From assembly GCF_014205075.1 (NCBI RefSeq), contig NZ_JACHMU010000001.1:1860001-1924000 (forward strand): a stretch of 64,000 nt of DNA, in the 5' to 3' direction. This stretch comes from Microbacterium ginsengiterrae (GTDB lineage Bacteria; Actinomycetota; Actinomycetes; Actinomycetales; Microbacteriaceae). Both the position numbers and the translations under genes were made by a program. Under the pieces are notes generated by a model. It made no database searches and was not told where the DNA came from. It saw nothing but the letters and a program-made list of their open reading frames with translations. Position 1 is the stretch's first letter. Each line of letters starts with the position of its first letter. Below, piece by piece: positions 20,040 to 61,014 of the stretch.

Positions 20040-21401
20040 ATGCCGCTTTTCGGCACCGACGGTGTGCGAGGACTCGCCAATGGCATCCTCACCGCCGATC
20101 TGGCGCTCTCCCTGGCCCAGGCGACTGCTGTCGTCCTGGGCCAGGGCCGCACCGCAGAGGCGCGCAGGGCAGAAGGCAAACGGCTCTCCGCCGTCGTCGC
20201 CCGCGACCCGCGCGTCTCCGGTGAATTCCTCGTGGCCGCCGTCTCGGCAGGCCTCGCCGCATCCGGCGTCGACGTGTTCGACGCGGGTGTCATCCCCACT
20301 CCGGCCCTGGCGTTCCTCGTCGGCGATCACGACGCCGACTTCGGCGTGATGGTCTCCGCGTCGCACAACCCCGCGCCGGACAACGGGATCAAGATCTTCG
20401 CCCGTGGTGGTGTGAAGCTCCCCGACGTCGTGGAGCAGCGCATCGAGGCCGCGATGGCGGGGGAGAAGCTCCTCCCCACCGGTTCCGGCGTCGGGCGCAT
20501 CCAGCGCTTCTCCGACGCGGAGGACCGCTACAAGCTCCATCTGCTCGGTTCCATGCCGCATTCCCTCGACGGCATACATGTCGTGCTCGACTGCGCGCAC
20601 GGCGCGGCATCCGGTGTCTCGCCGGAGACGTTCAAGGACGCCGGAGCGACCGTCACGGTCATCGGCGCCGAGCCGGACGGCATCAACATCAACGACGGCG
20701 TCGGCTCGACGCACCTCGACAATCTCGCCGAGGCCGTCGTGCGGCTCGGCGCCGATGTCGGCATCGCCCACGACGGTGACGCAGACCGCTGCCTCGCCGT
20801 CGACGCGCAGGGCAACATCGTCGACGGCGACCAGATCATGGCGATCCTCGCCGTCGCGATGAAGGAGCGAGGCCACCTCACCGACGACACGCTCGTCGCC
20901 ACGGTCATGAGCAACCTCGGTCTGCACATGGCGATGCGCGAACACGGCATCACCGTCCGGCAGACCGGTGTCGGCGACCGCTACGTGCTCGAGGACATGA
21001 ACGCCGGTGGCTACGCGCTCGGCGGCGAGCAGTCCGGGCATGTCATCATGAGCGAGTTCGCGACGACGGGCGACGGTGTCCTCACGGGTCTTCACCTCGT
21101 CGCCGAGATGGCGCACAAGAAGAAGTCGCTGGCTGAGCTCGCGTCCGTCATGACGGTGTACCCGCAGGTCCTCATCAACGTCCGCGGTGTCGACAAGGAC
21201 CGCTGCTCCGACGACGAGGGCGTCCAGGCCGCCGTCGCGGCAGTCGAGGCGGAACTCGGCGACACCGGCCGCGTGCTGCTGCGCAAGTCGGGGACCGAGC
21301 CGCTCGTCCGCGTCATGGTCGAGGCGGCGGATGCGGAATCCGCGCAGGCGTACGCGGAGCGTCTCGCCGCCGTCGTGAAGGACCGGCTCGCTCTCTCCTG
21401 A
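20040..21401 (+). CDS. glmM: phosphoglucosamine mutase
   Basis: 453 residues beginning [15 protein letters not shown]. The phosphoserine loop is [16 protein letters not shown] (about residues 97-112), the metal loop is [13 protein letters not shown], the sugar-binding loop is GGEQSGHVI, and the phosphate-binding C-terminus is [15 protein letters not shown]. It interconverts glucosamine-6-phosphate and glucosamine-1-phosphate on the way to UDP-GlcNAc, feeding peptidoglycan and the polysaccharide locus that follows. It is 14 bp from rpsI, with AAGGAT before the ATG. Confidence 0.97.
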
Positions 21402-21447
21402 GAACGCTGAGCTCCTGCCGTCATCGCTGCTCCGGCACGTCCGTTTG

Positions 21448-21463
21448 GTAACGGAACGGTAAC
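21448..21463 (+). promoter_or_regulatory. 11-bp-period TAAC direct repeat, copy 1
   Basis: GTAACGGAACGGTAAC: GTAAC at 21448 and again at 21459. The same element (ATAAC twice, 11 bp apart) lies at 54872-54887, at nearly the same distance from the shared leader structure. The form suits a response regulator of the OmpR family; GTAAC-type direct repeats recall actinobacterial MtrA sites, which is inference. Confidence 0.55.
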
Positions 21464-21517
21464 AACTCCATTCGACCGTATTTGAACTCCGGCAGACCAG
21501 GCGTAATTTTACGACGT

Positions 21518-21606
21518 CTCCTCCCGCTCGTAATCCGAGCGGACGGGAGGAGCTGGGGCTGGATGACCGTGACCTTCACTGGGGGAGGTCGATTGCGGTG
21601 ATCCAG
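21518..21606 (+). ncRNA. candidate structured 5' leader RNA, copy 1
   Basis: Hairpin 1: CTCCTCCCG-CTCG (21518-21530), loop TAATC, CGAG, a 4-base bulge CGGA, CGGGAGGAG (to 21552). Then CTGGGG (21553-21558). Hairpin 2: CTGGAT (21559-21564) pairs with ATCCAG (21601-21606); a G-G mismatch; ACCG pairs with CGGT; an asymmetric internal loop (T versus GATTG); GACCT (21571-21575) pairs with AGGTC (21586-21590). The same plan with compensatory changes is at 54943-55030. Confidence 0.6.
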
Positions 21607-21652
21607 AAACGGGGTCGAAGGGCCCGAGGGGAGTTCATGAGTCGTCGGTTTC

Positions 21653-21877
21653 GTGCGCGGAGCGCGCGTCGCGGCGATCGGCTGCTGGCCGGATGCTGGT
21701 CGAAACGGAGGGTCAGCACCAGCGGTCGAGGAGGATGAGACGGAGAGACGCGGACAGGCATCGTCCCCGCGATCGAGTCACCTCCGGCCGACGACTCTGA
21801 ATCCGCGGACCGCCCACTGCAGAGGCGGGCTTACGGACGTCGCCGTGCGAGCGTATGATCTGGTCGTGACCGGCTGA
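21653..21877 (+). pseudogene. possible remnant of a secreted-protein gene start
   Basis: From a GTG at 21653 the frame begins MRGARVAAIGCW, matching MRSSRVAIVGLL at the start of the pilus tip adhesin gene (GTG 55074). The flanking DNA TCGGTTTCGTGCGC is identical in both. After about 12 residues the likeness ends and the frame loses signal-peptide character, reaching a stop at 21877. It is probably not a functional gene. The remaining DNA up to 21908 shows nothing else recognisable apart from the GGGGGAG site of the next gene. Confidence 0.35.
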
Positions 21878-21908
21878 ACTGGGGAGGCCGGGACTCTTTG
21901 GGGGAGTC

Positions 21909-30352: not shown

Positions 30353-30443
30353 GCACGCGGGACACCTTGTCGGTGTCACTTCGCCGGGGACTGCGGAGCG
30401 ACACCTTGGATTCGCGCTGGGGCATGAATCGTCAGCAGGGTGA

Positions 30444-30459
30444 TCGCGCGAAAGCGCGA
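30444..30459 (+). other. GNRA-capped hairpin before the deacetylase gene
   Basis: TCGCGC-GAAA-GCGCGA is a perfect 6-bp stem closed by a GAAA tetraloop and followed by AAAA. It ends 16 bases before the ATG at 30476, close to the ribosome binding region. Confidence 0.6.
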
Positions 30460-30475
30460 AAAACTGGGGGTGGTC

Positions 30476-33400
30476 ATGAGTTCGATCTCGCGTACCCGTC
30501 GCACGCCGTACGGGCGGGCGGGGCGAATGGCAGGGGCGGTCGCTGTGCTGCTCGCAGCGACGCTGTCGGTGCCGACGGGCGCGCAGGCCCTCCCGACGCG
30601 CGCGGCGGCACCCGCGACGTCCGCGTCGACGTCATCGGCTTCCCCGCTCGTGGCGGCATCCGCACTCGCATCCGCACCGGCGCTCACCACGGAGGCATCC
30701 GCACGGGCGCTCACACCGGCGCTCGCATCCGCACAGACCGGCGGGGGCATGGCGGCCCTGGCCGCGGGCGACACCTCGATCGTCGCGACACCGGCGCAGA
30801 TCGTCTTCAACGCCGTGCAGGGCGAAGAGTGCCCCGCAGTGCAGACCGTCGGCGTCACGACGGGCACCTCCGCCGAGACGGGCTGGCGCGCCGTCGAGGA
30901 CGCCGCGTGGTTGAGGGCGAGCGCGAGCGGGAGCACGACGCCGGCGACGGTGTCCCTCTCGGCCGCGTGCGCGACGCTCCCCGTCGGGGTGCACGACACG
31001 ACGCTCCTCGTCCAGGATGCCGGCGGTGCGACCGTCACCACGGTGGCGGTGACGGCGATCGTGAACGAGTCGTCTCCCGTCCGGGTGGCCACCTGGCGTG
31101 ACGGACACCGCGGCGCGTTCAGCGTCTCGGTCGACGACGGTCGCGACTCCGGTGGGGCGGAGCTGGCGGCGCACGGGATGGCCGGCACATTCGTGATGAA
31201 CGGCACGACGGCCCCGCCCACCTACCCCGGCCTGTTGTCGGCGGGGATGGAGCTCGGGTCGCACCTCGTCTCGCACTACTGCAGCGACGTCGACGACGAG
31301 ACGTGGCGGTACGAGATGGAGGCGAACATCGCCGGCGTCGCCGATGTGACGGGGTCCGCCGAGCGGGTGGTCAGCATGGTCTGGCCGTGCGGCTTCACCA
31401 CGCTCAAGGCGCAGGCGATCGCCAGCGAATACTTCATGTCGACGCGCGGGTACAACATCAACGCCCTCGAGGACGCGACGCCGGCGAACTTCATGAATCT
31501 GAAGAGCTACAACTCCCACGAGCACACCCCGTTCCCTCCCGCGGATCTGAAGACGATCGTCGACGGCGCCCAGTCGAGCGGGAAGTGGGCGAACCTCGTC
31601 CTCCACGACTTCCTCAACGACGACGGTGCGATCGCGTACGCCGCGACCAAGGACGTCTGGTCGGCGCCCATCGGGGATGTCGTCAAGTACATTCACCAGC
31701 GCGACCGGACCATCGTCAGCGGATACTCCGAATCGGCCGACGCGCTCGACTTCGATGTGCGGCGCCTGGCACTCACGGCCTCTCGCGGCCGGGACTTCGA
31801 GCCGACGTTCACCGCAGCCGACACCATCACGATGCAGGTGGCGCTGCCGAGCGGGCGGCACGCGCTCGCCGTCTCCGTCGGCGGGACAGAGGTGCCGTTC
31901 TCCACGTCGCAGTCGGCGGGGGTCGAATTTCTCACGTACTCCGCCCCCGTCTCGACGCAGACGCAGCACACGCGGGTGCAGTTGTCGGACTCCACGCCAC
32001 CGGCGCTGACGCTGTCCACCACGCACCTCAGCGCGAGTGCGGTGGCGGGAGCGGTGGTGCCGGCCTCCTCGTTCACCGTCACCAACAGCGGGCGGGGGAC
32101 GCTGCAGTGGAGCGCCACCACGAGCACACCGTGGCTGACCCTCTCGCCCTCCTCGGGGGTGAACGGGGGAACCGTCGAGGTGGGCTACACCGCCACCGGG
32201 CTCGCCGTCGGGACGCACACCGGGACCATCACCGTCACCGCGCCGGGGGCGGTCGGCTCGCCGAAGTCGATCGCGGTGACGCTCACCGTGCTGCCGCAGG
32301 GGGCGCAGCAGTATCCGTTCGATTACGCGTCGCGGTCGGAGCTGCTGGCGGATGGGTGGGACTTCATCGCGAGGACCCCGGCGGGGCAGCCCCGCAACAC
32401 AGAGCGCACGAGTGGCCTGACGGTGGGGTACTCGCCGACCGGGATGACGATCCCCGCGGATGTCGGGGACCTGTGGGAGTCGTTGAACAACACCCGCAAC
32501 AGCGTGTTCCGTGACCTGCCGGCGGACTGGTCGAGGGTGGAGCTGGGCGTGCAGTTCGCCCCGTGGGGCAACCACCAGCAGGCCGGGCTCGTCGTCTACG
32601 GTGACGATGACAACTACGTCCAGGTCACCCGCAACTTCAACTCCTGGTTGGGCGGCAACTCGGTCGCCTTCGTCAGCGAATCCCAGCGCGTCACCACGGA
32701 CCGGACGACGGCGACGGCGTCGACCAGCCTGCGGCTGAGACTCGAGCGCGATGGGGACACGACGCTGGCGTCGTTCTCGGCGGACGGGGGAGTGTCCTGG
32801 GTCGACGCCGGGTCGACGACGCAGACCATCGCCGCGCCGCGGCTCGGCATCATCGTCGGCGCCAACGACTCCGGGGGCGTCGCCCCGCCCGCGACGATCA
32901 CGGATGCCGTCGTGACGAGAGGCCAGACGCCGCCCGACCCCGAGCCGGGTGATCCGCCGGCGACCGGTGCCTTCGCCTTCGACTATGCGTCGCGGTCGGA
33001 GCTGCTGGCGGATGGGTGGGACTTCATCGCGAGGACGCCGTCCGGGCAGCCGCGGAACACGGAGCGCACGAGTGGTCTGACGGTGGGGTATTCGCCGACC
33101 GGGATGACGATCCCCGCGGATGTCGGGGACCTCTGGGAGTCGTTGAACAACACCCGCAACAGCGTGTTCCGTGACCTGCCGGCGGACTGGTCGAGGGTGG
33201 AGCTGGGCGTGCAGTTCGCCCCGTGGGGCAACCACCAGCAGGCCGGGCTCGTCGTCTACGGTGACGATGACAACTACGTCCAGGTCACCCGCAACTTCAA
33301 CTCCTGGTTGGGCGGCAACTCCGTCGCCTTCGTCAGCGAATCCCAGCGCGTCACCACGGAGCGATCGGATGTCCTCTCCGCGACCGCCCTCCGGCTGCGC

Positions 33401-35179
33401 CTGGAACGCGAGGCGGGGGTGACCACCGCATGGTTCTCCACGGATGCCGGGGCGACATGGCGGCAGTCCGGATCGACGACGCAGAGCATCACTGCTCCGC
33501 GGCTGGGGATCATCGTCGGGGCCAACGACAGCTCGGGGACGGCGCCGGTCGCACGGATCACCGACGCCGTGGTGACCGCAGGATCGGTGCCGGAAGATCC
33601 GCCGGTGGAGCCGAGCGACCCGCCTGTCGACCCGACGGACCCGACCGATCCGCCCGAGCCGCCGGTCGACCCGACCGATCCGCCCGAGCCCCCGGCGATG
33701 GCAGGCGGGGTCTACGCGTTCGACTACGGCTCGCGCGCGGAGCTCGAGTCCGACGGCTGGAGCTTCGCGGCACGGACGGCGGGCGGCGAGGTCCGTGACA
33801 CCGCACAGTCGAGCGGCATCACGTACAGCGAGTCGGGAACCCGCGTGGCCGCGGGGACCGGCGACCTCTGGGCCGGGCTGAACAACACTCGCAACAGTCT
33901 GTTCCGCCCGCTTCCTTCCGATTGGCGGACGACGGAACTGTCCCTGGACTTCGCGCCGTGGGGCGATTACCAGCAGGCCGGTCTGGTCGTGTACGGCAGT
34001 GACGACGACTACGTCCAGGTGACGAGGAACCACAACTCCGGCAGCGGCGGGCACTCGGTCGCCTTCGTGTCGGAGATCGGCGGGGTCGCGACCGCGAGGG
34101 CGGTCACGGTGAGCGCCACCGAGCTCGTGCTGCGACTCGTCCGGGACGGAGACCGGATCGAGGGGTCCTTCTCGGCCGACGGCGGGGTGACCTGGGTGCT
34201 CGTCGGCTCTGCGGTGCAGACCGTGTCCGCGCCGCAGTTCGGCATCATCGTCGGTGCCAACGAGTCCGGGGGGACGGCCCCGGAGGCGGTCATCCGCGAG
34301 GCGCGGATCGACGCGGCGGCGCCGCCGATCCTCGAGCGGACCGCGGCACCGGAGTCGGACGCGGGCGAGGCACCGGAACCGGAGCGTGCACCTGAGCCCG
34401 AGCAGGAGCCTACGCCCGAGCAGGAGCCCGCGTCCGAGCAGGAGCAGGAGCGCGCGCCGGAACCCGAGCCCGCTCCGGCACCCGAGCCCACGCCGGAGCA
34501 GGAGCCCGACCCGGCACCCGAACCGGCTCCGGAGCCGGAACCCGTGCCCGTCACGTCGACCTACTCGTTCGGGTACGGATCCCGCGACGCGATGCTCGGC
34601 GACGGATGGGACTTCGTCGCGCGCAGCGCGGACGGACAGCCGCGCGACACCGAGCAGGCCGCGCCGGATGGTGTCGCATACACGCCGTCGGGGCTGATCA
34701 TCCCCGTGTCGACGGGAGATCTCCTCGGAGGGGCCGATGGGACGCGCAACAGCGTGTTCCGCGACCTCCCCGAGGACTGGGTGACCGTGCAGGTCGCCGT
34801 CGATTTCGCGCCGACCGCGGGGAACCAGCAGGCCGGGATCGCGCTGTACCAGAACGATGACGAGTACGTGCAGATCACGCGGACCATCGACCAGGGCAGT
34901 GGCGAGAACGGTGTGGTCATGGTGACCGAGAGCGGCGGAGCGGTCGCCGTGCCAGGGACGGCGGCGACCGACGCGACATCGGTGCTGCTCATGCTCCACC
35001 GCGAGGACGGCGGGGTCACCGGGTCGTACTCGGTCGACGGCGGCGCATCCTGGAGCGGTGTGGCGACGGTGGCGCAGTCGATCTCCGCGCCGCGGCTGGC
35101 AATCATCGTCGGGGGAGGCGACGGGGGCACGGACGCACCCGTCGCGACGATCGTCAGGGCCACGGTCACCGCAGGGTGA
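30476..35179 (+). CDS. giant secreted polysaccharide deacetylase with lectin-like repeats
   Basis: 1567 residues from the ATG at 30476. A signal peptide (to about residue 38, ending PTGAQA) and an Ala/Ser-rich stretch lead to a BACON-like Ig domain (about 101-200), then a NodB-type deacetylase domain (about 201-440) with [10 protein letters not shown], the His-x3-His of [11 protein letters not shown] and VLHDFLND. A second BACON-like domain (about 508-608, [12 protein letters not shown]) follows. Four repeats of about 200 residues come next (about 613, 832, 1079, 1361 onwards), each with NTRNS, FAPWG-x-x-QQAGL and D-Y/N-YVQ-x-TR, resembling concanavalin-like DUF1349/xylosidase C-terminal modules. 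Pro/Glu-rich linkers separate them. It probably de-N-acetylates and binds the surface polymer. No LPXTG anchor is seen. Confidence 0.85.
32327..32700 (+). repeat. near-identical intragenic repeat, copy 1
   Basis: This segment recurs exactly 660 bp downstream with about a dozen substitutions by eye. It encodes the first half of lectin-like repeat 1. Repeats 3 and 4 of the same protein are clearly more diverged. Confidence 0.9.
32987..33360 (+). repeat. near-identical intragenic repeat, copy 2
   Basis: Second copy of the 374-bp segment, in repeat 2 of the deacetylase. Identity falls sharply after about 33360, so the similarity is patchy within the module. Confidence 0.9.
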
Positions 35180-54614: not shown

Positions 54615-54871
54615 GTCCGCGCACCCCAAGCAATGCATGCACGCATACCCCAATGCGACATTGCTTCCCCAGATTCATCCCAGAAAATCCCGTCCGCCCC
54701 ACGCGTCCGGGTCATCCGTCACCGCTGATGCGGTGTTGCCGGACGACGTGATCCCACATCACGCTGTGCGTGCCGTCTTTCCCCTGGCCTGCACTGTCCG
54801 GCAATTCGGATGTGGGTCACAGTAGCCCACGATTCCGTCGAGCGGAAGAGGAAACTTCTGAAACCCCGTTT

Positions 54872-54887
54872 ATAACGGACAGATAAC
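54872..54887 (+). promoter_or_regulatory. 11-bp-period TAAC direct repeat, copy 2
   Basis: ATAACGGACAGATAAC: ATAAC at 54872 and 54883. Compared with copy 1 (21448-21463), the order, period and core TAACGGA are kept. It is 107 bp before CTGGGGCTGG; copy 1 is 105 bp before it. It also lies in the promoter region of the divergent priming transferase, so it could act on both. Confidence 0.55.
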
Positions 54888-54942
54888 GAATCGCGACGGC
54901 AGGCTGGCGCGGACGGCCGGCGACGTTACGTTGAGCTTGCTT

Positions 54943-55030
54943 CGAACGAGATCTGGGGATCTACACCGTTCGCAGCGACTGGGGCTGGGACGCCACGACC
55001 GAATGGGATCGGTTGTATGCGGCGTGCCAG
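54943..55030 (+). ncRNA. candidate structured 5' leader RNA, copy 2
   Basis: Hairpin 1: CGAACG-AGATC (54943-54953), loop TGGG, GATCT, a 4-base bulge ACAC, CGTTCG (to 54972). Then CTGGGG (54979-54984). Hairpin 2: CTGG (54985-54988) pairs with CCAG (55027-55030); a G-G mismatch (54989/55026); ACGCC pairs with GGCGT; internal loop AC versus GTATGC; GACCGA (54997-55002) pairs with TCGGTT (55009-55014). The region between the priming transferase start (54614) and this point shows no gene. Confidence 0.6.
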
Positions 55031-55073
55031 ATGAGGGTTGGGGGACCCCTTGGGGAACAGAGAAGTCGGTTTC

Positions 55074-58000
55074 GTGCGCTCTTCGCGCGTCGCCATCGTC
55101 GGCCTACTGGCCACAGCGCTGATCGTCAGCGGTGCCACTCTCGCTTCGGCGGAGGATGGGGCATCTGCGGGCGACACAGCATCAACGCCTCAGGCGATCA
55201 CGACGACGAGCGTCAGCTTCCCGGATGCCGCATCGTCGGCTCCGGTCGAGGCTCCTGCCGCCGACGACTCGTCCCCGCAAGCGGCGCCTGCTCCGGCGCT
55301 CCCCTCCGCGCCGGAGCAGCGCGTCATGTCAGGAGAGGCGCCGGCGACGCCGGAGCCCCCTGCCGAGACGCCGACGGAGCCGGGCGAGCCGGGTGAGCCG
55401 GTCGATCCGACGGATCCGACCGTGCCCGCCGCCGATGAGCCGGCGCCGCCGCGCGCCGCGGCGCGTGAGGTCGCACCGACGGCCGAGATCGCGGCGCGGG
55501 CGGACAGCTCGCACGCCGACATCGTGATCCGCAAGCGCGTCACCGCCGAGCCGACGCAGGTGACGGCGGCGCCGTCCGTGAACATCGGCACCGACCACTC
55601 CGACACCGTCGGCACGGTGTTCCGCCTCTTCGCGAACACCGGGAGCAACACGGTGGGCGCGGCGACGGCATACACGTGCACGATCACGACCGGCGGCGAG
55701 TGCACGATCACGGTCGACGCCGTGAACAGCGGCGGCGCGAACAGCGGCAAGCGCTTCTGGGTCGTCGAGCAGGCGCCGGTCCCCGGCAGCCCGGCGGCGC
55801 TGAACACGTACATCAACAGCGAGCTGTATGTCGGCGACTACACCGGTCCGCAGGATGTGCGCAGCCTCGTCGGTCTCACCAAGGCGCTGGGCGCGAACCA
55901 GACCACGTACATGCCGATGACCACCGGCGTCTCCTCCGGTTCCGGTTACACGAACATCGCCTCGGCCGACCTGCCGAACACGTCGGCGACCGTCGGCGAG
56001 GCGGGATCCTTCGGCGCGGTCGTCGGGTCGCGCAAGAACCCGGTGATCGCCGCGAAGTGCGAGGCGACCCCGCTGCGGATCGGCATCGTCATCGACCAGT
56101 CGGCATCCATCACGGCCAGTCAGTGGACGACGTTCCGCAACGCGCTCGTCGACGGCCCGAACTCCGTGCTGCGACAGCTGCGCGATGCGAATGCGGCCGT
56201 GTCGATCCTGGGCTTCGGGTCGAGCGTCGTGAGCCCGAACGGTTGGCACTACGGCTCGACGGGGCCCACGGCTCTGCCGGCGAACAACACCACGCTGCAG
56301 AATCTGATCCCGTCGTCGCGTCCCGGTGGTTCCAGCAACGCGACCAACTGGGATGCGGCGCTGAGCACGATCCAGTCGGCCAATCCGTCACACCGCTACG
56401 ACATGGTTCTGTTCGTCACCGACGGTGCGCCGAACTACATCCTCAACGGCTCGCAGCCCAGCAGCACCGAGGTCGCGCTCCGTTCGCTCGAGGCGCCGAT
56501 GTACGCCGCGAACGCGATCAAGGCCGCCGGTACCCGACTCGTCACGGTCGGCGTCGGTGCGGGGGCGTCGGGCACGAAGGTCGCCAAGAACCTTCGCGCG
56601 GTGTCGGGGGAGACGTTCGGCTCGGACTACCTGCAGGGCGACTGGGATGCGTTGAAGCAGATCCTGTCCGACATCGTGACGGCCGCGACCTGCCAGGTGC
56701 CCGTCGAGGTGTCGAAGACGCAGGTGAACGCCGACGGCTCGACGACGACGACGGCCGCGAACTGGCAGTTCGCCGCGGCGCTGCAACCGGGGACGACTTC
56801 GGGAGTCACCCTGTCGGGCACGGCGGGGCAGACGACGACCGCCGGTGTCGCCGGCAAGGCGCGCTGGACGATCCGGTTCACGCAGCCGGGCGGTCAGACC
56901 GCGGTGCTGAAGCTCAGCGAGACGCAGAAGTCCGGGTGGGCGCTGCAGTCGGTCGCCTGCACCCTGGATGCCGTGCCGATCACCACGACGGTCGGGGGAG
57001 ACGGCGCGTCGATCGTCGTGAACGGTCTGCACCCGAGCGCCGGAGCGCTGTCGTGCGTGTTCACGAACAAGCAGTCGACGCCGGCATCCGTCACGGTGAA
57101 CAAGGTCTGGAAGATCGACGGTGAGACGTTCGCGCACGGCGACCAGCCGGGCGGCATGGATGCGGCACTGGCGCTGACCCCGGCAGGACAGACCGGCACG
57201 CCGAAGTGGGGGCAGACGCGCACCGGGTTCCTCGTGGGTGACAGCGTCACCATCGCCGAGACGACGTCGATCGATCCGACGCTCTTACCCGGTTGCATCC
57301 TGACCGGGAGCACGATCGCCGGGCCCGGCATCACGGGAGGCGCCGCTCTGCCCGCCGACGGCCACGCGGTGACGCTGGCGAGCGCATCGAGCACCTACAC
57401 GGTGACGAACTCCGTGCAGTGTCAGCGGCTGACGATCGTCAAGGACGTCGACAACCGCTTCGGGGGCGACGGGACGTCCGATGATTGGAACGGCGGGCTG
57501 TTCGCGCAGCGCGACGATCAGCCGCAGCTCGCGTTCGATTCGGGCGAGACGCAGTACGTCGCCGCCGGGTCGTACGCGCTGAGCGAGGCCGAGCGCGACG
57601 GGTACGGACAGCGTGGGCTGTCGTGCACCGGGGGGACGCTCACCGGATCCCGCGTCGAGGTCGCGGCGGGCGCTCATGTGACCTGCACCTTCGTCAACGA
57701 GGATCTGCCAGGGCAGGTGTCCTGGACCAAGACCGACGGCACGACGAAGCTCGCCGGCTCCGAGTGGACGCTCACCGGCCCCGGCGGTAGGACCACTGTC
57801 GTCGACGACTGCGTCGGCGCGAATGTCGCCGCGTGCGCGGGCATGGCCGATCAGGATCCTGCGGCCGGTGCCTTCCTGCTGAAGGATCTCGACTGGGGCG
57901 ACTACTCGCTCGTCGAGACGGCAGCACCTCTTGGATACGTGCTCGATTCGACGCCGCATCCCTTCTCCGTCGGCGCCACGTCAGCTGGTTCGGTGATAGC

Positions 58001-58175
58001 TCTGGGGGCGTTCATCAACACACTCGGCGTGGCGCCGGCCCTTCCGCTCACGGGCGGACTGGGCAGCGATTTCTACACGTTCTTCGGGCTCGGTGTCCTC
58101 GTGCTCGCCCTTCTGCTGCTGGCCATCCGGCGGCTGTGGGTGCGCAGGCAGGTCGCCGAGGTGGGAACCCGATGA
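55074..58175 (+). CDS. VWA-domain LPXTG surface protein, pilus tip adhesin type
   Basis: The GTG at 55074 gives MRSSRVAIVGLLATALIVSG, a signal peptide cleaved near TLASA; the frame opens at TTG 55038, which is a weaker start. About 1033 residues. A Pro/Glu/Ala-rich stretch is followed by a CnaB-like region, then a von Willebrand A domain with the MIDAS loop VIDQSASITASQW and a later FVTDGAPNY. Several CnaB/SpaA-type domains end in YSLVETAAPLGYVL (E-box). The sorting signal is LPLTGG, a hydrophobic helix and an Arg-rich tail. This matches tip pilins of SpaA-type pili. It is the first gene of adhesin-pilin-sortase, behind the structured leader. Confidence 0.9.
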   Translation: MRSSRVAIVGLLATALIVSGATLASAEDGASAGDTASTPQAITTTSVSFPDAASSAPVEAPAADDSSPQAAPAPALPSAPEQRVMSGEAPATPEPPAETPTEPGEPGEPVDPTDPTVPAADEPAPPRAAAREVAPTAEIAARADSSHADIVIRKRVTAEPTQVTAAPSVNIGTDHSDTVGTVFRLFANTGSNTVGAATAYTCTITTGGECTITVDAVNSGGANSGKRFWVVEQAPVPGSPAALNTYINSELYVGDYTGPQDVRSLVGLTKALGANQTTYMPMTTGVSSGSGYTNIASADLPNTSATVGEAGSFGAVVGSRKNPVIAAKCEATPLRIGIVIDQSASITASQWTTFRNALVDGPNSVLRQLRDANAAVSILGFGSSVVSPNGWHYGSTGPTALPANNTTLQNLIPSSRPGGSSNATNWDAALSTIQSANPSHRYDMVLFVTDGAPNYILNGSQPSSTEVALRSLEAPMYAANAIKAAGTRLVTVGVGAGASGTKVAKNLRAVSGETFGSDYLQGDWDALKQILSDIVTAATCQVPVEVSKTQVNADGSTTTTAANWQFAAALQPGTTSGVTLSGTAGQTTTAGVAGKARWTIRFTQPGGQTAVLKLSETQKSGWALQSVACTLDAVPITTTVGGDGASIVVNGLHPSAGALSCVFTNKQSTPASVTVNKVWKIDGETFAHGDQPGGMDAALALTPAGQTGTPKWGQTRTGFLVGDSVTIAETTSIDPTLLPGCILTGSTIAGPGITGGAALPADGHAVTLASASSTYTVTNSVQCQRLTIVKDVDNRFGGDGTSDDWNGGLFAQRDDQPQLAFDSGETQYVAAGSYALSEAERDGYGQRGLSCTGGTLTGSRVEVAAGAHVTCTFVNEDLPGQVSWTKTDGTTKLAGSEWTLTGPGGRTTVVDDCVGANVAACAGMADQDPAAGAFLLKDLDWGDYSLVETAAPLGYVLDSTPHPFSVGATSAGSVIALGAFINTLGVAPALPLTGGLGSDFYTFFGLGVLVLALLLLAIRRLWVRRQVAEVGTR

Positions 58176-58231: not shown

Positions 58232-59713
58232 ATGAACGAAAGAAGGCCGATCCGTCGCCTGGCATCCGGGGTGGGAGTGCTCGCACTCGCTCTCGCGGGG
58301 GTCATCGGTGGGGCGAGCATGGCGAGTGCGACGACGGCGGGTCCGGGTCAGCCCGGGGCGCCTGATGAGGGCACTCTGGTCGTGTACAAGTACGCCGGAA
58401 GTGCGACTGAGCAGAGTGACAACGGTACGGAGCAGACCGTCGATCGTCCGCCTCTGGGGGGCGTCACGTTCGAGGTCACGCCGGTCGGGAAGGATTCCGG
58501 CAGCGGGTGCGTCGCGCTCGATCTGGGCACGGCCGCCGGGTGGGCGGATGCGCAGGTCGCGGTCGGCTCGATGCCGCCGGCATCGCCGTACTGTCTCGCG
58601 ACGGCGGACTCCGTCACGCAGGTGACCGACGCCACGGGGACGGCGTCGTTCTCCGGTCTGCCGCTGGGGCTCTACCACGTCGATGAGACGGCTGCTCCGG
58701 CGGGTGTCGTTCCGTCGGTGGAGTTCTATGTGACGCTTCCGTACGCGAGCGAGCAGGGGAAGAGCACCGACTGGCTGTACACGGTGCACACGTATCCGAA
58801 GAACACGCTCGAGGGTGACGGCGACAAGACCGTCGCCGACCCGTCCGCGCACGGTCTGGGTTCGACGGTTCCGTGGACGATCCAGTCGAAGCCGATCGGT
58901 TCGTTCAACGACGGGCAGCGGCTGACGTCGTTCTCGCTGCATGACAACCTCGACGCGAAGCTCACCTACACCGCGACGCCGGCGGCGACGCTGACGTACA
59001 CGGAGCCGGGTGGTTCGCCGGTGGCGGTGCCGAGCTTCTCGCTCACGGAGCCCACGGGTGCCGGGGGGACGCTGACGGCAGCGGTGACCGACATGGATTG
59101 GCTCAACGAGCGGCCGGCCGGGACGTTCTTCACGTTCTCGTTCAGCACGGTCGTGACGGGTGTCGGTGACATCAAGAACGAGGGTTTCCAGAATTCGGGT
59201 GGGGATCCGGTGACCCTCGGTGAGGCGTCGACGCAGTGGGGGCCGGCGGAGATCCTGAAGCACCAGAAGGGCGACAAGAAGAAGACGCTCGCGGGTGCGA
59301 AGTTCTCGGTGTTCGACTCGCCGAATGGCACGGACTGCACGGGTCCGCTCGGTGCTGCGCTGACCGTGAACGGTCAGACGGAGTTCGAGTCCGGTGCGAA
59401 CGGTGTCGTGGCGATCGCGGGTCTGTGGGTCGGCAACGACAACACGGTGGCCTCTCGGGTGTACTGCGTCGTGGAGACGCAGGAGCCGGTGGGGTACGTG
59501 AAGGACACGACGCCGCGGATGATCACGGTGAAGCCGGAGGCGACGGCGACGACGACCGCGCATATCGATGTGGCGAACACGCCGGTTCCCGGTCCGTCGC
59601 TGCCGATGACGGGTGCGAACGGGACGCTGTGGTTCACGGTCGGCGGCATCGCGCTGATCGCGATGGCCGGTGGCGGTCTGCTGCTCGTGCGTCGGGCTCG
59701 CTCGCACGAGTGA
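58232..59713 (+). CDS. major pilin, LPXTG-anchored, isopeptide-forming
   Basis: 493 residues from the ATG at 58232, with GGGGAGA upstream. A signal peptide (ending ASMASA) precedes an N-terminal domain with GTLVVYKYAG. The pilin motif is DWLYTVHTYPKN (about residues 186-197), whose Lys is joined by the class C sortase to the Thr of the next subunit. A C-terminal CnaB domain has the Lys of LAGAKFSVFD and the E-box YCVVETQEPVGYV for an internal isopeptide bond. The sorting signal is LPMTGANG plus a helix and RRARSHE. It is the shaft subunit of the pilus polymerised by the downstream sortase. Confidence 0.93.
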   Translation: MNERRPIRRLASGVGVLALALAGVIGGASMASATTAGPGQPGAPDEGTLVVYKYAGSATEQSDNGTEQTVDRPPLGGVTFEVTPVGKDSGSGCVALDLGTAAGWADAQVAVGSMPPASPYCLATADSVTQVTDATGTASFSGLPLGLYHVDETAAPAGVVPSVEFYVTLPYASEQGKSTDWLYTVHTYPKNTLEGDGDKTVADPSAHGLGSTVPWTIQSKPIGSFNDGQRLTSFSLHDNLDAKLTYTATPAATLTYTEPGGSPVAVPSFSLTEPTGAGGTLTAAVTDMDWLNERPAGTFFTFSFSTVVTGVGDIKNEGFQNSGGDPVTLGEASTQWGPAEILKHQKGDKKKTLAGAKFSVFDSPNGTDCTGPLGAALTVNGQTEFESGANGVVAIAGLWVGNDNTVASRVYCVVETQEPVGYVKDTTPRMITVKPEATATTTAHIDVANTPVPGPSLPMTGANGTLWFTVGGIALIAMAGGGLLLVRRARSHE

Positions 59714-59802: not shown

Positions 59803-61014
59803 ATGTCGCGAGTGGATGAGTTCTCCGGCACGGTGGCGGATGCGCCCGGTGGCCGGGATGCGTCGGGTCAGGATGCCGGTGGGGATGCGTCGGGGGCTCT
59901 CGGCGCGGACGCCCGCGGGTGGCGGATGCCGTGGGGCATGTTCGTCGTGGTCGTGGTGATGTTGGCGGGGGTGGGGCTGCTGCAGTATCCGGTGGTGGCT
60001 GCGTGGTTGTCGCAGTACTACCAGTCGCAGCTGATCGAGGATGTGTCCGGTGAGGTGGGGCAGGAGTCGGGCGCGGATCTGGTGTCAGAGATTCTGCGGG
60101 CGCATGCCTACAACGATCTGCTGGAGAGCGGGGCTCTGTTGGCGGCGAATGCGAACAAGCCGACGGGGGATTCGGCGCGGGTGGACGAGTTCGCATACTC
60201 GGATCTGTTGCGGGCGACGCCGGCGGGGGTGATGGGGCGGTTGCGGATTCCGGTTATCGATGTGGATCTGCCGATCTATCACGGGACGTCGGATTCGACT
60301 CTCGCGAAGGGCGTGGGGCATCTGGAGGGGACGTCGCTTCCGGTGGGTGGTGTGTCGCAGCATTCGGTGCTGACGGCGCATCGCGGTCTGCCGGAGGCGG
60401 CGTTGTTCAACGATCTCGACAAGGTGGGGATCGGTGATCGGTTCACGGTCGAGGTGTTCGGTGAGGTTCTCACGTATGAGGTGATCGAGACGCGGGTGGT
60501 GGATCCGGATGATTCCGACACTCTGCGGGCGGTGGCGGGTGAGGATCTGATGACTCTGGTGACGTGCACGCCGCTGGGGATCAATTCGCATCGGTATCTG
60601 GTGACGGGGGAGCGGGTGACGCCGACGCCGATCGAAGATGTGGCGGCTGCCGGTGAGCGTCCGGATGTTCCTGGTTTCCCGTGGTGGGCGGTGACGTGCG
60701 GTGGTGCTGGGCTGCTCGGTGCGGCGTTGGTCGTGCTCGGCGGGCGGAGGTCGCGGCCTGCGGGTGGTGTTTCTCGTGACGCTCATGACGCTGGTGACGC
60801 TGGTGACGCTGGTGACGCTGGTGACGCTGGTGCCGCTGGCGGCGCTGGCGACGCCGACCGGTCGGGTGGTGATCGGCTGGCGCGTGGGCAGGCGGATGGT
60901 GATCGGCTGGCGCGTGGGCAGGCGGATGGTGATCGGCTGGCGCGTGGGCAGGCGGATGGTGATCGGCTGGCGCGTGGGCAGGCGGATGGTGATCGCCGCG
61001 GGAGTAGTGACTGA
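59803..61014 (+). CDS. class C sortase with repeat-rich tail
   Basis: 403 residues. An N-terminal membrane helix (MFVVVVVMLAGVGLLQYPVVA, about residues 46-66), then the sortase domain: GRLRIPVIDVDLPIYHGTSD, VLTAHRGLP with the catalytic His, and LMTLVTCTPLGINSHRYLVT with the Cys and Arg. TLVTCTP and the second membrane helix (WWAVTCGGAGLLGAALVVLG) mark class C, the pilus polymerases. The C-terminal about 75 residues are unusual: five DAG triplets and four perfect copies of a 10-residue unit GDRLARGQAD. The tail is cytoplasmic by topology and has no known function in sortases. Confidence 0.92.
   Translation: MSRVDEFSGTVADAPGGRDASGQDAGGDASGALGADARGWRMPWGMFVVVVVMLAGVGLLQYPVVAAWLSQYYQSQLIEDVSGEVGQESGADLVSEILRAHAYNDLLESGALLAANANKPTGDSARVDEFAYSDLLRATPAGVMGRLRIPVIDVDLPIYHGTSDSTLAKGVGHLEGTSLPVGGVSQHSVLTAHRGLPEAALFNDLDKVGIGDRFTVEVFGEVLTYEVIETRVVDPDDSDTLRAVAGEDLMTLVTCTPLGINSHRYLVTGERVTPTPIEDVAAAGERPDVPGFPWWAVTCGGAGLLGAALVVLGGRRSRPAGGVSRDAHDAGDAGDAGDAGDAGAAGGAGDADRSGGDRLARGQADGDRLARGQADGDRLARGQADGDRLARGQADGDRRGSSD
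60787..60831 (+). repeat. 9-bp tandem repeat, five perfect copies
   Basis: GACGCTGGT repeated five times, followed by two diverged copies to about 60849. It encodes Asp-Ala-Gly triplets in the sortase tail. Confidence 0.95.
60871..60990 (+). repeat. 30-bp tandem repeat, four perfect copies
   Basis: Units at 60871, 60901, 60931 and 60961, each beginning GATCGGCTGGCGCG and ending GGCGGATGGT, identical in all 30 bases. They encode the 10-residue repeats of the sortase tail and keep the frame. Confidence 0.98.

Follow-up and report, generated by a model that had tools for sequence, protein, structure and literature searches.

In this study, a window of 64 kb from the genome of Microbacterium ginsengiterrae (G000, a single contig of 3.04 Mb; window G000:C1:1860001-1924000) was analyzed, and two copies of a folded RNA were found in it, one before pilus genes and one standing alone behind a glmM-type gene. 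This RNA is undescribed and lies outside the catalogued RNA families. We consider it probable that the copies belong to two transcription units with one type of promoter and one module of three hairpins (H1-H2-H3), copy 2 (54943-55049) being a pilus leader with translational control and copy 1 (region 21518-21606) being part of an RNA of its own, about 280 nt long, which arose from a lost pilus-tip gene. The observations behind this reading are the fold, its covariation, homologues in other genomes, a shared upstream box and the gene neighborhood. The features are listed in Table 1.

Table 1. Features assigned in the 64-kb window; positions are those of the window
Feature	Positions	Strand	Basis and remarks
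glmM-type phosphoglucosamine mutase gene, upstream neighbor of copy 1	20040..21401	+	annotation
Direct repeat GTAAC-GGAACG-GTAAC, candidate MtrA-type box of copy 1	21448..21463	+	pattern scan; cf. available text of PMC3353115
-10-like TAATTT (TATGCT in G078, G099, G333, G348)	21504..21509	+	by eye
Whole stand-alone structured RNA candidate (copy 1)	21518..21797	+	alignment A9, covariation, hold-out test
H1 of copy 1	21518..21552	+	helix 1 with 13 pairs, of which 6 have two-sided change; 96.9% formed across 5 genomes
Linker CTGGGGCTGG, common to copy 1, copy 2 and G033 only	21553..21562	+	sequence comparison
H2 of copy 1	21559..21606	+	folding, covariation
H3 of copy 1, with GAAG as loop in place of the UUGGGG seen elsewhere	21612..21625	+	folding
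3′ domain within the stand-alone candidate (closing strands GAGTCGTCGG/CCGACGACTC)	21639..21797	+	alignment fold; resembles pilus-tip codons
Direct repeat ATAAC-GGACAG-ATAAC, candidate MtrA-type box of copy 2	54872..54887	+	pattern scan
H1 of copy 2	54943..54972	+	folding
H2 of copy 2	54985..55030	+	folding, covariation
H3 of copy 2, GGGTT-GGGG-GACCC, ending one base 5′ of the start codon	55035..55048	+	same layout in G033
Pilus tip protein (VWA and SpaA domains, LPLTG anchor; start TTG)	55050..58175	+	start set by comparison with G033
SpaD-type pilin, LPXTG anchor	58232..59713	+	domain matches
Sortase	59803..61014	+	gene annotation

Fold, upstream box and relatives of the two copies

A sequence-only reading of the window had proposed two copies of common architecture, and box, fold and spacing were indeed found to be common to both. 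Folded alone, 21518-21606 reached -48.4 kcal/mol with z -4.42, which 0 of 200 shuffles matched, and 54943-55030 reached -36.6 kcal/mol with z -2.25, matched by 6 of 200. Addition of the tail made the signal weaker (21518-21640: z -3.62, 0 of 200; 54943-55075: z -0.96, 30 of 200). The string CTGGGGCTGG is exactly shared, as had been noticed (in copy 2 at 54979-54988), and by itself is common, with 20 places in the genome. Also, the folds of both copies bore out that the stems differ in their letters and yet pair. Further details of the proposed architecture had to be revised. Counted from the top, the G-G mismatch keeps its place, five pairs below the bulge in either copy; counted from the bottom it does not, since the outer stem has six pairs in copy 1 and four in copy 2. 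The proposed short/long internal loop became a 0/4 bulge in the fold, and the 4-base bulge of hairpin 1 is present in only one of two near-equal folds of H1 in copy 1.

Covariation was evaluated with a four-row alignment (A7, built with MAFFT, its sequence ends picked by agreement of the folds) and a six-row alignment (A8). On A8, which comprises six copies and, being fitted to the covariance model, leans towards it, standard pairs make up 80.9% of the H2 cells, and two-sided changes are seen in 8 of 19 pairs. Neither value was reached by any of 500 shuffles, and with the partner slid they fell to 30-43% paired cells and 0-4 pairs. Among five measures in all, the one for further pair types was reached by 49 of the 500. 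Thereby, the earlier idea of a covarying structured RNA gained support. For the outer H2 helix on A7, 81.3% of cells were paired and 3 of 12 pairs had two-sided changes (slid versions 29-42% and 0-1; 21 of 500 shuffles as high), and RNAalifold recovered H2 plus three H3 pairs from A8.

The pattern RTNAC-N6-RTAAC, which was written post hoc with the copies already seen, occurs exactly twice in the window, once ahead of each copy (0.11 expected; 1 of 100 shuffles with two). In seven of seven copies the box starts 69-71 nt before H1, and the distances of 70 and 71 nt in the window confirmed that the spacing to a shared upstream motif is kept. According to the available text of PMC3353115, the MtrA site of Corynebacterium glutamicum has the form (A/G)TAACAATttn(A/G)TAACAAT and, at activated genes, precedes the -35 region. 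Because the box fits this form, it looks like an MtrA site, and control by MtrA may be proposed. MtrA-regulated promoters are known from actinobacteria such as Corynebacterium, Streptomyces and Mycobacterium; like the box found here, the activated targets of C. glutamicum (PMC3353115) have an RTAAC...RTAAC direct repeat of 11-bp period upstream of the promoter core. In the accessible parts of PMC6265350, PMC5650626 and PMC13189361, the MtrA sites of other genera are similar and have spacers of 2 to 6 nt. Automatic scans found neither a promoter nor a terminator. Downstream, the string GTCGGTTTCGTGCGC-N4-CGCGCGTCGC is shared at 21644 and 55065, and in copy 2 it lies within signal-peptide codons.

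A covariance-model search of actinobacterial genomes and a comparison with Rfam had been suggested as checks, and both agreed with a structured RNA outside the known families. Model R2 (copies 1 and 2 plus two relatives) was run on 366 congeneric genomes, and model R3 (six copies) on 398 genomes of the family and then again on the 366 congeners. Thereby, seven copies were detected in 6 of the 366 congeneric genomes, namely G000 (twice), G099, G078, G033 (M. esteraromaticum), G333 and G348; the five homologues beyond the window came with supporting covariation. These matches were accepted as real because the box and neighboring hairpins were present in each; G348 was absent from the R2 matches listed. 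For the 398 family genomes, R3 yielded no convincing match beyond G000 itself. The searches ran with strict filters, by which weak matches can be missed, so absence in other genomes is no proof. Among 35 weaker matches that were inspected besides the first four, including every R3 match at E <=0.02, none other than G033, G333 and G348 had the box, and most were inside genes by eye; L089 and L092, where the contig ends, were read without the match itself. From R2, which gave a match at E <=1 in 132 of the 366 genomes, the inspection covered the higher-ranked ones.

Sequence searches with each copy in 99 congeners recovered the G078 homologue, and the other matches (1 and 11) were unrelated by eye. 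The downstream-motif pattern with up to one mismatch returned three already known places only in 99 genomes; at two mismatches, 18 more places appeared in 366 genomes, none with the upstream box. Reading of the stretch behind glmM in the 25 nearest congeners gave the unit in G000, G078 and G099. No relative was found by a protein scan of genome contigs, and a pattern scan returned M. esteraromaticum plus two records from unrelated taxa which were taken as chance. Rfam 15 contained no match at E up to 1 for 21430-21750, 54850-55130 or the loci of the five relatives, and the whole window gave three tRNAs only at the gathering cut-off. Literature searches, as far as text was available, gave nothing on this RNA.

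Structure and proposed descent of the unit behind glmM

Copy 1 directly follows glmM in G000, and its relatives do so in G078, G099, G333 and G348. There, it is part of a unit of about 280 nt in G000 and about 280-330 nt across the five genomes, the 3′ end of which was set by the closing helix 21639-21648/21788-21797. The full unit is represented by these five sequences only, aligned as A9. Their consensus has 97 pairs with 91.5% of cells formed, and 29 pairs show two-sided change, compared with 12.1 +/- 2.5 in shuffles (0 of 500 as good) and 2-9 in slid versions. The alignment folded with -95.1 kcal/mol, whereas column shuffles gave -55.5 +/- 4.5, none of 100 being as good; the minus strand reached -68.5, and 75 G-U cells stood against 13 A-C cells. 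The 3′ half of the unit also carries conserved structure. In a hold-out test of G000, the fold obtained from the four relatives formed 74 of 81 pairs, and 17 of 24 unseen pair states were standard versus 9.5 by chance. For the other genomes, the pairs formed amounted to 92% (G078), 95% (G099), 87% (G333) and 80% (G348). Their unseen pair states were little above chance in G078 (6 of 12, 4.7 expected) and G099 (4 of 8, 3.2 expected), at chance in G333 (5 of 15, 5.8 expected) and below it in G348 (6 of 23, 8.8 expected). As single sequences, the 3′ domains gave modest z values of -1.8 (G000), -1.1 (G078) and -1.7 (G099), with -3.3 and -3.4 for the other two units.

Fourfold sites of glmM served for comparison; at these, 0.38-0.47 differ between G000 and the rest and 0.23 between G078 and G099. 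Over the five genomes, the 3′ domain has 87 invariant columns among 157 ungapped ones and H1 has 18 among 34, versus 44 of 154 glmM fourfold sites (p 1e-6 and p 0.007, respectively). Around H3, 13 of 31 columns are invariant; for linker plus H2 the count is 5 of 50, and the flank ahead of the box has 4 of 44. According to these counts, sequence is conserved in H1 and in the 3′ domain, and H2 is conserved in structure only.

At the place used for translation start by copy 2 and by G033, all five units behind glmM have no start codon after H3, and their signal-peptide frame is broken by differing indels (both by eye). The 3′ half of copy 1 matches tip codons of copy 2 (GCATCGTC...CCGACGACTC; 0 of 500 shuffles as good), and the signal-peptide stretch of G333 does so equally (0 of 500). 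This match is weak in G348 (12 of 500) and at chance for the 3′ halves of G078 and G099 (118 and 290 of 500); copy 1 showed no match above chance to the codons of G033 (57 of 500). Because of the broken frames and the matches to tip codons, the unit resembles the 5′ part of a pilus-tip gene with a lost body, the trace being clearest in G000 and G333. Copy 1 would accordingly descend from the promoter, the leader and the first 70-odd codons of such a gene, the remainder having been lost. The signal-peptide frame would have decayed with the RNA fold kept, and the 3′ domain would be multi-branched.

These traits bear also on the main rival explanation, in which all five units behind glmM would be an old pseudogene made up of promoter, leader and a tip-gene stub of no own function, still recognizable because decay is slow. 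Missing start codons, frames broken in different ways and the likeness to pilin codons agree with it. Furthermore, the linker string and the UGGG loop of H2 are lost in G078, G099 and G333, H2 drifts like the flank, and the hold-out pair states of G333 and G348 do not exceed chance. On the other hand, the excess of invariant columns in H1 and the 3′ domain over glmM fourfold sites and the two-sided changes in 29 of 97 pairs speak against a mere stub. The box was kept in five of five units, and the 3′ fold is not seen in the coding relatives, in which it is weak (z -0.9 for copy 2, -0.2 for G033). We regard a pseudogene as the less likely reading; in our view, copy 1 is most probably a non-coding RNA that originated from a pilin gene since lost.

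The leader of the pilus operon

Judged by its position, copy 2 serves a sortase-pilus operon as 5′ leader, as had been assigned before; tip protein, SpaD-type pilin and sortase genes follow downstream. The order in G033 is leader, ATG after H3, SpaA-repeat tip protein with LPLTG end, SpaD-type pilin and sortase, and this operon is located downstream of glmM with RelA-like and VanZ-like genes between (by eye). The two tip proteins are 50% identical over 202 C-terminal residues. In both genomes the start is one base apart from H3 (GGGTTTGGGGACCC-A-ATG in G033, GGGTTGGGGGACCC-C-TTG in copy 2), and from the placement of the ATG in G033 and the TTG at the same place in copy 2 the start of the tip protein was put at 55050. 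A conserved fold directly 5′ of the pilus-tip start was found in these two genomes, both with intact operons, and the intact leader is known from these two operons only; a regulator of surface genes at large, as the sequence-only reading had it, would go beyond these cases.

From this arrangement we infer where transcription may start and how the leader may act on translation. The MtrA-type box would activate transcription from a start about 70 nt further down, close to the foot of H1. In the resulting mRNA, the leader would control translation by the G-rich, Shine-Dalgarno-like UUGGGG in the loop of H3, and since H3 adjoins the start codon, its opening or shielding would set pilus-tip translation. 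Linker and H2 loop would offer further UGGG single strands which a factor could bind. There are translational-control leaders which carry the ribosome site within a hairpin. Copy 2 is like them in that its H3 ends one base from the start codon and has the Shine-Dalgarno-like loop; it differs in that it is not known to bind a ligand or protein.

A small-molecule riboswitch would likewise explain a start codon adjoining H3 and a conserved fold in which copy 1, copy 2 and G033 have CTGGGGCTGG single-stranded. We consider this improbable, given that the H2 sequence varies freely, Rfam had no match at E up to 1, the RNA is present in 6 of 366 congeners only and the terminator scan was negative.

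The more general idea that hairpins with UGGGG loops mark the starts of surface genes was rejected, as 7 were near starts in 464 kb versus 6-16 for six control words, which is no enrichment. In the window, raw counts without shuffle control gave 21 TGGG-loop hairpins on the plus and 20 on the minus strand. One hairpin at 21892-21908 (GACTC-TTTGGGG-GAGTC), directly 5′ of the ATG of an AMP-binding ligase, resembles H3 before the pilus tip.

Coding capacity, neighbors and possible action of the stand-alone RNA candidate

The unit might encode a short protein instead of an RNA, as open frames of 146 aa in G078 and 164 aa in G099 begin at a TTG in the H3 loop and have SAPAxEEEASxRSRHRV in common, and a start-like site GGGGGAG...GTG is present in G078, G099 and G348. 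However, the frame from the same TTG stops after 27 codons in G333 and 29 in G348, G000 is without that TTG, the GTG/ATG peptides of 7 to 34 aa are mutually unlike (by eye), and chance open frames are common in G+C-rich DNA. Owing to the two open frames, this reading keeps a little weight, and we judge it quite unlikely.

The sequence-only reading had taken copy 1 as a leader of the polysaccharide locus, for which the co-directional AMP-binding ligase (21909), starting 111 nt past the conserved unit in G000, would speak, but the unit closes in its own helix at 21797 and the ligase has its own TATGAT (21854-21859) and start hairpin just upstream (by eye; promoter scan negative). The closest gene behind the unit has the opposite orientation in each of the four other genomes, being RmlC-RmlD in G078 and G348, a lipoprotein-like ORF in G099 and an RmlD-like frame by eye in G333; on this ground the assignment was dropped, and a cis leader at this place appears most improbable. 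As a separate observation, the polysaccharide region contains at 30440-35179 a protein of 1579 residues with four GH43_C2-type and three DUF1349 stretches. Another set of hairpins, with TGGGA-type loops, was noticed in L051 and L054 (G112 and G111) at about 2490-2690 in glmM orientation, downstream of glmM and a VanZ-like gene; the gene that follows resembles, by eye, a sugar-phosphate transferase of exopolysaccharide synthesis.

The non-coding RNA favored here would probably act in trans or via a bound factor. A decoy mimicking the leader of a coexisting pilus mRNA was rejected, as it fits G000 only. There, linker CTGGGGCTGG and UGGG loop are kept in both copies; G099, G078 and G333 do not fit, having lost them, and a second leader was not found. 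No pilus match was obtained in the regions read of G078 (80 kb), G333 (36 kb) and G348 (7 kb). In G099, of which 80 kb were read, another type of sortase pilus operon is located about 50 kb from the stand-alone RNA (L145, 5866-10875, minus strand), without leader or box.

The 6C sRNA (RF01066) is an actinobacterial RNA with C-rich loops. It was rejected as partner of the UGGGG loops, since G000 had no RF01066 match at E up to 0.001. Over 10 genomes it was not found in nine, including G000, G099 and G078; a sub-threshold match occurred in G100 only (L070, G100:C1:649446-649525, 43.5 bits versus a cut-off of 47). In 5′-UTR-derived sRNAs, such as that of rhlI in the available text of PMC6786874, the RNA likewise shares promoter and leader with an mRNA and ends early; copy 1 differs by its separate locus with the gene body gone.

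Tentatively, several Microbacterium species may go back to an ancestor in which the body of the tip gene was lost, and leader, promoter and signal-peptide codons may have become a free-standing structured RNA, still under MtrA-type control and acting in trans, in G000 perhaps on the pilus leader or in competition with it. The results add an RNA family which is absent from Rfam 15, and they give actinobacterial sortase pili a candidate two-level switch consisting of MtrA-type box and RNA leader. Also, because one congener still has an intact pilus operon near glmM, they provide a testable case of the 5′ end of a protein gene turning into a non-coding RNA.
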